DNA of 6,920 nucleotides from Candidatus Desantisbacteria bacterium CG1_02_38_46 (lineage in GTDB: Bacteria > Desantisbacteria > UBA1551 > UBA1559). Below the pieces are notes generated by a model that was not told where the DNA came from, did no database searches, and worked only from the letters and a program-made list of their open reading frames with translations. The stretch is from assembly GCA_001871015.1 (NCBI GenBank), contig MNUO01000126.1, forward strand, positions 1 to 6,920, written 5' to 3'. How positions within the stretch are numbered: position 1 is the first letter of the stretch; every line of letters begins with the position of its first letter. The position numbers were made by a program, and so were the translations under genes. Positions 151 to 4,587 of the stretch are shown piece by piece.

Positions 151-1293
151 TTAGATCCGGGGTATTAATAAGATAAACTCGTTTTCAGTTAAAGTTAATT
201 CAATTTCTTTATTTAATTTTTCTTTCATCGTTTTAATCATTCTACAAACCCCACTACCAGTGTCTGTTACCATTCCAATTTTGTAAAGCAGATTATAGAG
301 AGTTGGATTTCTAAGCACATGACAACCTGCTTTCATACTCCCTATAGTAACTGTATCAGGTAACTTTCCAGGTGTTCTAATTTCTATTCTATCCTCAAAT
401 ATGAACAATCTTATTGAAGCATTAATTGTATAATCTCTATGAGCGACTGCGTTTACAATACCTTCTCTTAAAACCTCTTCAGGAATTTCAGGATATAATT
501 CTGATTCAAAACCTTTTATCCTGTGTTCTTCCCTCAGGTATAATTTTAAAAATTTTGTCGAACCATTGAGTATATCCGGAATCTTCCCCTCCAAATCTTT
601 TCTGTCTGATGGGGGAATAGAAATATCCTTTCCAGGAATGTAAGCAGCTATAATCTTCGCAAATGGAATAAAGGCCTGGGGATTTTTTCCAAAAAATAAT
701 ATCCCGGCGAGTGTAGGTTTTTTATCATCCGTAATAATTTTAAGATTCTTGAAATAATTTTCAATCAACATCTCTTTAGGAGAAACACCCAGGTATTTTT
801 CCAGAAAATCTTTAAAAAAATCTATATCAAGCTCACCCGGTGAGACTTTAGAAATAGGAATCTCATCATAATAAATGCTTTCACTTGTTTGATAGAGCCT
901 TCTAACTTCTTGCCATGAGGCTTGTCTGCATCTATTCCCTGACCTGATATAATAAATACCACTTTTTGTCCGATAGGGCCTTTGTCCTCCTTTAGGAATA
1001 TTAATAATCAAAACAATTTTACCATCCATATCAACTGTTTCTGAAAGAATACTAACAGGGGGCTCACATCTATTGAATGCAACATCATCAATTGTTCTTA
1101 ATGATTCATCTACATCCTTAATTCCAACTATATCACCTGAGCTGCTAACGCCAATTATCAGTTGCCCACCATCAGTATTTGCAAAACAAACAATGGATTT
1201 AGCAAGAGCTTCATTATCTGGTGGGCTTTCTTTAAACTCTGTATGTAAATTTTCCCTTTTTAATATTCTTTCCTGCAATTCTAATTTATCCAT
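151..1293 (-). CDS. AlbA_2 (Schlafen-type) putative DNA-binding protein with GHKL ATPase-like C-terminus
   Basis: This 380-residue protein has the layout of a widespread bacterial family often annotated as putative transcriptional regulator or RecG-like ATP-binding protein. An N-terminal AlbA_2 domain (about residues 15-130) carries the family signatures EFKES (19-23) and ANTDGG (38-43). A linker region leads to a C-terminal HATPase_c_4-like domain (about 270-380) with the N-box-like EGIVNAVAHRDY (N281), an acidic D301 before RIEIRTPG, RNP (328-330) and the glycine motif TGSG (345-348). The start is ATG with GGAG five bases upstream. It follows fabF in the same direction, about 120 bases away, with a coding remnant between them, so it is probably a later arrival rather than part of the fatty acid pathway. 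Family members are scattered and often mobile; their physiological role is poorly known, with nucleic acid binding and ATP use predicted. The gene appears intact. Confidence 0.85.
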   Translation of the reverse strand: MDKLELQERILKRENLHTEFKESPPDNEALAKSIVCFANTDGGQLIIGVSSSGDIVGIKDVDESLRTIDDVAFNRCEPPVSILSETVDMDGKIVLIINIPKGGQRPYRTKSGIYYIRSGNRCRQASWQEVRRLYQTSESIYYDEIPISKVSPGELDIDFFKDFLEKYLGVSPKEMLIENYFKNLKIITDDKKPTLAGILFFGKNPQAFIPFAKIIAAYIPGKDISIPPSDRKDLEGKIPDILNGSTKFLKLYLREEHRIKGFESELYPEIPEEVLREGIVNAVAHRDYTINASIRLFIFEDRIEIRTPGKLPDTVTIGSMKAGCHVLRNPTLYNLLYKIGMVTDTGSGVCRMIKTMKEKLNKEIELTLTENEFILLIPRI

Positions 1294-2906: not shown

Positions 2907-3647
2907 TCACATTGCCATTCCACCATCAATTCTGATCACTTGCCCGGTGATATAATTAGAATCATCACTGACTAAAAATAGTGCAAGTTTTGCAACATCC
3001 TCAGGACTACCAAATCTATTAAGTGGAATTTGCTCAATTAATTTTTTCTTCCACTCTTCCTTTAAAACCTGGGTCATTGGTGTATCTATAAAACCCGGAG
3101 CAATAGCATTTACATTTATTCCTCTACTGGCGAACTCTTTTGCTGTGGTTTTGGTAAGCGCAATAACCCCTGCTTTGCTGGCAGCATAATTTGCCTGTCC
3201 AAAGTTACCAATTATTCCGATAATTGATGCCATATTCAAAATCTTACCACTGCATTGTTTTAACATTATTCCTGATACTGCCCGGGTACAGTTAAAAATA
3301 CCCTTAAGATTAATGTCAATAACCTTATCCCAGTCTTCTTCTTTCATCTTAATTAATAACGCATCACGGGTAATGCCGGCATTATTAATCAAAATATCAA
3401 TCCGACCATATTTTTCCATTACTTTTTTAACCATATCCTCTACCTGAGCAAAATTAGAAACATCCACATTGAATGCAATTGAATCTCTGCCGATGAGATT
3501 TATTTCATTTGTAACCTTTGTGGCCTCTTGCTCGTCAACATCAATAATAACAGAATTTGCACCCTCCCTGGCAAGTGTCAATGCGATTGCTTTCCCAATA
3601 CCTCTGGCAGAACCAGTAACAATTGCAACTTTCCCCTCTAATTTCAT
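2907..3647 (-). CDS. fabG: 3-oxoacyl-ACP reductase
   Basis: FabG is an NADPH-dependent short-chain dehydrogenase/reductase that reduces 3-ketoacyl-ACP to 3-hydroxyacyl-ACP in each elongation cycle. The 246-residue protein has the cofactor motif TGSARGIG (11-18), NNAG (88-91), Asn113, and the catalytic Ser141, Tyr154 and Lys158 in [19 protein letters not shown] follows, and the family C-terminus [11 protein letters not shown] is near the end. I choose the ATG at 3647 ([12 protein letters not shown]), which has GGAGG four bases upstream and matches the family's usual N-terminus. A longer reading from TTG at 3677 adds ten residues, but these are encoded by one arm of the palindromic element at 3659-3720 and by the ribosome binding site. 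The hairpin ends only a few bases before this ribosome binding site and could affect fabG translation. Confidence 0.96.
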
Positions 3648-3658
3648 CAAACCTCCAG

Positions 3659-3720
3659 AGGTGTCAGGTCTTGACAAATCAGGACTAAAGTCCTGAGTTA
3701 CATGTCAAGACCTGACACCT
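3659..3720. repeat. 62-base palindromic REP/MITE-like element at the fabD/fabG junction
   Basis: The outer arms AGGTGTCAGGTCTTGACA (3659-3676) and TGTCAAGACCTGACACCT (3703-3720) are perfect 18-bp inverted repeats. Inside them, TCAGGACT (3679-3686) and AGTCCTGA (3689-3696) form a second perfect 8-bp stem with an AA loop, and a small asymmetric internal loop joins the two stems. This two-tier symmetry is far beyond chance and is typical of REP or MITE-like mobile repeats. The arm resembles, by recollection only, sequences flanking REP-associated (Y1/IS200-like) transposase genes. The right arm encodes the last residues of FabD and the inner stem carries its stop codon. No T-tract follows on the transcribed strand, so it is not a simple intrinsic terminator. 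No second copy is visible in this window. Confidence 0.85.
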
Positions 3721-4587
3721 ATTTTTATCGAATCGGCGCCACAGTCCGGAAAGTACTTTCCCTGGACCTACTTCAAGAACCCCATCTACGCCCTTATCTA
3801 AAATACGTTGCATCACATCTGTCCAGCGAACCGGATTATTAACCTGTTTAATTAACGATTGCCTGATTTCATCAGGGTCCTGTAAATAATCTCCTGTAAA
3901 ATTTGCTATAAATGAAATCCGGGGTGATTTTATTTTTAGATTTTTAATTTCTTCTGATAATCTCAAGGAAGCTTCGTCCATCAATCTTGAATGAAATGCA
4001 CCGCTTACAGGAAGTAGTTTACACATTTTTGCTCCTGATTCTTTAGCTAGTTTACCTGCTTCGTCCAGCGCCTTTAATTCGCCTGAAAGAACAATTTGCC
4101 CCGGACAATTGAAATTAGCAATATCAATTATTCCTTTTGAAGAAGTAACCCTGCAAATATCTTCAACTTTTTTTTTCTCGAGGCCTATTACTGCAAGCAT
4201 TCCAGACTGAATTTTTAAGCCTGCTTCCTCCATAAACAGGGCGCGCTTCCAAACCACTGGTAAGGCCGATTCAAAAGTAATTGCCCCACTTGCAATAAGC
4301 GCAGCATATTCACCTAAACTATGACCGGCACAAACCTGCGGCACAATGTTTTTCTCTTTTAATATTTCCAATATAGCAATCTCAACAGTTAATATTGCTA
4401 CTTGAGTAATGCTGGTTTTCTTGAGTTCTTCTTCGGTTCCATCAAAAATAGTTCGGGAAAGAGAAAAACCAAGTCTAAAATCAGCATTGTCAAAAACTTT
4501 TTTTGCTGCAGGGTATTTTTCATATAAATCCCTTCCCATGCCTGGTTTTTGACTACCCTGTCCGGGAAAAACAAACGCTAAATTCAA
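3685..4587 (-). CDS. fabD: Malonyl-CoA:ACP transacylase with repeat-derived C-terminal tail
   Basis: FabD transfers malonyl from CoA to ACP, giving the extender for every elongation round. The 300-residue protein shows FPGQGSQ (7-13), the nucleophile Ser90 in GHSLGEY, Arg115, Asn160, His199 in GAFHSRLM, Gln248 and GPGKVLSGL (274-282), so the active site is complete. The start is TTG at 4587. It overlaps the plsX stop in a TTGA arrangement, has GGGAG seven bases upstream, and gives the normal family N-terminus. The oddity is the end: residues 290-300 (RCQVLTCNSGL) and the TAG stop are encoded by the palindromic element at 3659-3720. The native tail beyond FDKN appears to have been replaced or truncated. 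The core fold is probably unaffected, since the family's tail after GPGKVL is variable, but this is inference. Confidence 0.95.
   Translation of the reverse strand: MNLAFVFPGQGSQKPGMGRDLYEKYPAAKKVFDNADFRLGFSLSRTIFDGTEEELKKTSITQVAILTVEIAILEILKEKNIVPQVCAGHSLGEYAALIASGAITFESALPVVWKRALFMEEAGLKIQSGMLAVIGLEKKKVEDICRVTSSKGIIDIANFNCPGQIVLSGELKALDEAGKLAKESGAKMCKLLPVSGAFHSRLMDEASLRLSEEIKNLKIKSPRISFIANFTGDYLQDPDEIRQSLIKQVNNPVRWTDVMQRILDKGVDGVLEVGPGKVLSGLWRRFDKNRCQVLTCNSGL

Follow-up and report, generated by a model that had tools for sequence, protein, structure and literature searches.

The fabD-fabG junction

The DNA analysed here (the window, 6,920 nt of Candidatus Desantisbacteria bacterium CG1_02_38_46) corresponds to contig C7 in a draft MAG of 1.73 Mb (133 contigs, 87.8% complete), which we call G000. 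A plsX-fabD-fabG-acpP-fabF cluster is read on its minus strand, and a Schlafen/AlbA_2 domain gene (window 151-1293) lies downstream of this fatty-acid cluster. The junction between fabD and fabG comprises the following features.

3685-4587, minus strand: fabD (malonyl-CoA:ACP transacylase), 300 codons; PF00698, E 5.9e-39; TIGR00128, E 4.2e-95
3659-3720, no strand assigned: 62-nt palindromic element (non-autonomous, TIRYT-type arms), a copy of a dispersed family
3659-3676, plus strand: outer arm, AGGTGTCAGGTCTTGACA
3703-3720, minus strand: outer arm, inverted copy; the translated 5' arm on the fabD strand
3679-3696, no strand assigned: inner palindrome TCAGGACTAAAGTCCTGA, which occurs elsewhere as an independent tandem repeat
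3688-3720, minus strand: FabD codons 290-300 (RCQVLTCNSGL), element-encoded
3685-3687, minus strand: FabD TAG stop, at the apical loop of the inner hairpin
3648-3658, minus strand: spacer between element and fabG, CTGGAGGTTTG, including the fabG Shine-Dalgarno sequence GGAGG
2907-3647, minus strand: fabG, the next gene of the cluster

The outer arms, 26 nt apart, are complementary at 18 of 18 positions, in agreement with an earlier note on this DNA that had placed a perfect 18-bp inverted repeat at the fabD 3' end. The nested 8-bp stem of that note is likewise present, in that the inner palindrome (TCAGGACT/AGTCCTGA) forms 8 pairs by sequence and folds as 7 bp with a 4-nt loop. On the fabD strand, the RNA of the element has a predicted folding energy of -42.6 kcal/mol (z = -9.2), a stability reached by 0 of 200 shuffles; its DNA fold has a z of -9.7. 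Each of the six reading frames contains a stop codon 16-38 nt from the edge of the element, as do 445 of 5000 shuffles of the 62 nt, and no open reading frame passes through the element in any of the six. A reading frame should therefore be closed wherever the element lands at a gene end.

As the earlier note had described, the fabD frame runs through one arm, so that codons 290-300 and the TAG at the hairpin apex fall within the palindrome. In the predicted product of this essential gene, the last 11 residues and the stop are provided by the element, and between the element and the fabG ATG nothing remains but CTGGAGGTTTG. No target-site duplication was found, a direct repeat being absent between the flanks gataaaaat and ctggagg. 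Y1-type elements (IS200/IS605 type) do not make target-site duplications, and their absence is thus expected; for the same reason, the boundaries of the element were inferred from its family.

Homologous FabD proteins vary widely in their tails beyond the last conserved strand, and some are about equally short (297 residues at locus L090). An AlphaFold2 model of FabD, built on a shallow three-sequence alignment (mean pLDDT 83.5, about 62 over the last ten residues), places the element-encoded QVLT within the C-terminal strand (292-295), and the FabD tail of the relative G001, introduced below, has QVL at almost the same position. At low confidence, the element-encoded tail may replace the native one by luck. 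Deletion of the 62 nt yields a native-looking empty site, with FabD ending RFDKNLEV* and a TGATG overlap into fabG. We do not rely on this reconstruction because the joined frames of 16 elements after excision restored a nearby stop no oftener than shifted frames did.

A dispersed family of palindromes in the source genome

The earlier note had proposed a search for other genomic copies, and these were found. The element and its flanks as query gave 129 matches in G000, and the arm core GTCAGGTCTTGACA occurs in 69 exact copies (35 + 34), against 0 for a reversed control. The identical 62 nt are present at two other loci (C67:6658 and C6:3228) and 61 of the 62 at C68:1715, which excludes a chance palindrome; gene conversion would also fit the 62/62 identity among copies. 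Family members vary internally, with a longer spacer, several tandem inner palindromes or none, and the inner unit TCAGGACTAAAGTCCTGAGTTACA is also found in arrays that lack outer arms. Two palindromic repeats are thus combined in the element. Tandem TCAGGACTAAAGTCCTGAGTTACA arrays are located at C132:7686, C48:6758, C116:9018, C45:3730 and C127:7304 of G000, some of them alternating with a second palindrome, AAACCTTTAGGTTT or AAACCTTCAGGTTT.

The window copy is short, multi-copy, bounded by inverted repeats and devoid of a transposase, as is usual for a MITE. Of the earlier designation as a REP/MITE element, the dispersed, MITE-like character stands; the arms are of the TIR (TIRYT) kind and not of the GTAG-type REP kind, since neither a GTAG nor a CGTC tag was found at the foot of the palindrome, which reads AGGT/ACCT with no adjoining GTAG. 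A plasmid collection searched with the element gave no match, leaving plasmid spread unsupported. Runs of N inside some family members indicate assembly trouble in the repeats. Separately, the folC match (C54:1-954, locus L095) covers 243 of 400 profile positions before an arm interrupts the gene at the contig edge; this is either a pseudogene or an assembly break.

Transposon origin of the arms

In two distant genomes of other families, GTCAGGTCTTGACA arms flank a single gene at a spacing of about 1.02 kb. These transposons, and one from the source genome itself, are located as follows.

L146 1057-2081 and L147 2480-3500 (genomes G015 and G040): Y1-transposase transposons with GTCAGGTCTTGACA arms
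L062 1417-2449 (contig C109 of G000): complete TIRYT-type transposon, transposase at 1462-2445

PF01797 (Y1 transposase) scored above cut-off in the G015 and G040 products and is present in all three transposases, that of C109 included. Against NF047646 (REP_Tyr_transpos, curated cut-off 80 bits), the G040 copy passed with 82.7 bits and the G015 copy fell short with 64. The HUH motif NHYHL is conserved, and a DnaA-like helix-turn-helix C-terminal signal was found in two of the three transposases (G015 and C109), with none detected in that of G040. The arms of the G015 and G040 transposons read GGGGTCAGGTCTTGACATTTGACATT. The motif GGGGWSAS is present in the arms of the autonomous copies (GGGGTCAG) and in 9 of 76 G000 arms; the window arm, GGTGTCAG, is one base off. 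GGGGWSAS is the TIR motif of the systems described as TIRtrons or TIRYT (Di Nocera et al. 2013; PMC3733652), most of which a later classification assigned to TnpA-REP subclass 2.1, with helix-turn-helix C-termini (PMC6006769).

The C109 transposon lies 1 nt past the gatB stop and has 28-nt arms (AGGGTCAGACCTCAACATCTCACAACTC) that are 96% complementary; these arms (AGGGTCAGACCTCAAC) are related to those of the window yet belong to a different subfamily. In each of the three transposons, the last codons and the stop of the transposase lie inside its own right arm (SNVKT* in both G015 and G040, ELLDVEV* in C109).

Because the same arms bound Y1 transposons elsewhere, the most fitting interpretation of the window copy is that of a non-autonomous (MITE-like) relative. 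The Y1 transposase partner anticipated in the earlier note was thus found in G015 and G040, and none with the exact arms in G000, where no transposase among the three Y1 genes of the 87.8% complete assembly is bounded by GTCAGGTCTTGACA. Mobilisation of the window family in trans in this cell is therefore a matter of inference. The Y1 genes at C60 and C53 were rejected as partners, their arms not matching.

Gene endings across the genome

Arm copies in the retrieved G000 regions were grouped into 51 elements, and the neighbouring gene ends were scored. The stop of the upstream gene lies inside the element in 25 of the 51 arm-bearing elements, with all three frames used, and in a further 14 the distance from a gene's end to the edge of the element is 6 nt or less. 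By sequence, the family appears to close at least 25 genes in G000 including fabD, mostly core genes. The earlier note had called such protein-coding use uncommon, which does not hold within G000, fabD being only one of these genes.

The element-supplied tails include GVRS*, VSGLDK*, VSGLDM*, RCQVLTNDKYQD and RCQVLTCNSGL. All recipients except one of the 25 match an NCBIfam family; among them are secF, recJ, pta, ackA, hisD, pgk, an lptG-like gene, hom, aroA-cmk, ald, lpxB, xylB, acsC, recO, nifU/iscU, rnfB and etfA. The recipient profiles are almost complete, most equivalogs being matched to within about 0-6 end positions, with ald short by 11. Internal in-frame half-copies were seen in two genes only. 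One is plsY (C23:2461; L043 1485-1516), where a half-element encodes ICHLSRPDT and the G001 loop is shorter; the other is a fused acyl-CoA dehydratase activase gene (C74:11776; L116). Neither gene is ended by its half-element.

Comparison with a relative

The lineage of the source is poorly sampled, its phylum having two genomes in the collection searched, and no relative closer than G001 was found there. G001 is of the same order, and its FabD is 66% identical to that of the source. It has no palindrome at fabD, and its FabD (...RFDRTKQVLNVEDIESLEKLVTA) ends RFDRT-KQVLNVEDIESLEKLVTA, compared with RFDKN-RCQVLTCNSGL in the source, which supports the claim of the earlier note that insertion gave FabD a new tail. 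Other recipients also differ in their ends between G001 and the source: ...GIAALSEKK vs ...GIAALGVRS in Pgk, ...RRLLEAVMSHE vs ...VVQRCQVLTNDKYQD in Cmk, ...EIVLKVAGL vs ...EIIIKGVRS in LpxB, and ...YEWDKRYRKAR vs ...YELEKGVRS in SecF. An ackA orthologue was not found in G001.

The fabD-fabG gap of G001 is filled by a different repeat, TGATTACGGTGATTAT, also present at two other junctions of the operon.

L065 1-60, 820-890 and 3080-3130 (G001): copies of the TGATTACGGTGATTAT repeat

Origin of the element-supplied gene ends

We consider it highly probable that a mobile, non-autonomous palindrome with arms of the Y1 TIRYT/TIRtron type ends fabD and at least 24 other genes of G000, and that these copies were kept by a survival filter. 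The arms of the 62-nt palindrome would be the terminal inverted repeats of a Y1 (HUH) transposon of this type. Having come to lie across the fabD 3' end, just ahead of the ribosome-binding site of fabG, the element would take the fabD frame into one arm and supply the last 11 residues and the stop. With a stop in every frame within 16-38 nt, a short tail (GVRS*, VSGLDK/M*, RCQVLT...*) would close any gene end that is hit. Insertions probably survive at gene ends in a genome whose tandem genes are tightly packed (median gap of 5 nt away from elements), where the last codons of the upstream gene would be the main spot in which some 60 nt spare both the protein and the next ribosome-binding site. 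The new tails would on this account be tolerated.

An alternative is that the transposon actively targets junctions of stop codon and Shine-Dalgarno sequence, the bias arising at insertion and not through survival alone. In total, 39 of the 51 elements contain a gene's stop or have one no more than 6 nt away. A null model spread insertions uniformly over tolerated positions, taken as the final k codons of a gene and the gaps ahead of a ribosome-binding site; with simple gene calls of our own on the retrieved pieces only, it gave an expected near-stop fraction of 24-45% when 4-10 codons (k) are dispensable (P 7e-15 to 6e-6). Targeting would also fit the C109 transposon, 1 nt past the gatB stop, and the autonomous G040 copy, which forms the end of an ABC ATPase gene. 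When gaps longer than about 60 nt are treated as closed (promoters), however, the expectation rises to 68-87% and the excess is gone. Moreover, the left flank has no stop-codon motif, its sole preference being an A-rich base ahead of GG, and most G001 copies lie away from stop codons, as judged by long ORFs only. Because the excess depends wholly on counting long gaps as open, the count does not tell targeting from survival; we favour survival as the simpler cause and regard targeting as unlikely. Slightly less likely still is a more specific proposal, in which a TIRYT family inserts specifically at stop/ribosome-binding junctions and has the all-frame stop and a short benign tail built in. 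If true, this would be a mobile element adapted to harmlessness by rewriting gene endings, one whose own transposase also ends in an arm.

The highly stable structure immediately upstream of the fabG ribosome-binding site could instead be a functional regulatory RNA, kept by selection at operon junctions for translation coupling, RNase processing or differential stability, with the coding overlap a by-product. Regulation of translation by REPs, which Liang et al. are said to have described in 2015 (as cited in PMC8266576), would speak for such a role. In G001, however, the junction carries an unrelated repeat in place of the palindrome, an Rfam search with the element gave no match, no terminator was recognised, and comparative support for conservation at any single junction is absent. 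We therefore consider this reading improbable.

It is very improbable that short reads joined or collapsed repeats at the fabD-fabG junction during assembly. The draft is in 133 contigs, some elements contain N runs, and an arm interrupts folC at the edge of its contig; against this, both flanks fit the order and orientation of plsX-fabD-fabG-acpP-fabF, 25 genes with near-complete profiles show the same pattern, and comparable gene ends are found in assemblies made independently (G040). A conventional terminator or attenuator of fabD, unconnected to mobile DNA, would explain a strong hairpin at a gene end, but can be practically dismissed: a T tract after the hairpin (intrinsic-terminator test, GC stem and T run) is missing on both strands, the arms bound transposase genes elsewhere, and 69 exact arm cores genome-wide contradict it.

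On the preferred reading, a mobile palindrome kept by survival, a selfish palindrome can spread where hardly any intergenic space is free, by taking the last codons and stops of core genes. The 25 or more natural cases in one genome would make the dispensability of protein C-termini testable, as well as the effects of stop-codon hairpins on the next gene and the targeting of gene ends by a Y1 transposase. For annotation, the warning is that what looks like a protein's C-terminus in a genome of this kind may be derived from a transposon.

Comparison with known systems

The family most resembles the TIRtrons/TIRYT, with inverted-repeat arms around a Y1 (HUH) transposase, autonomous arms that fit GGGGWSAS, a DnaA-like helix-turn-helix signal in two of three transposases, and TIR-only copies that form repeat families as dimers. 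Unlike them, the window copy has GGTGTCAG, no gene and an extra inner palindrome, and half of its family overlaps gene ends. With REPIN/REP sequences and their RAYT it shares a palindromic, high-copy nature, a Y1 transposase partner and a position near gene 3' ends; it differs in lacking a GTAG foot, in having long perfect arms in place of short REP hairpins, and in lying unusually often inside coding sequence.

Nearly half of the copies of Rickettsia palindromic elements are in ORFs (reviewed in PMC10969869). They, too, are palindromic mobile repeats that serve as protein-coding sequence, but they stay open and in frame inside genes, whereas the window element closes six frames and ends genes. 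C-termini supplied by a mobile repeat are known from the enterobacterial RU elements (PMC2759123) and the Coxiella QMITEs (PMC5896051), in which a MITE at a gene 3' end likewise removes the native stop or gives the C-terminus; these are other element families, with fewer genes per genome reported. Element-supplied C-termini are thus already known in other bacteria, and what is unusual is how many genes are involved, together with a TIRYT origin. New here is that roughly one copy in two closes a gene, and that this happens via a TIRYT-type element.
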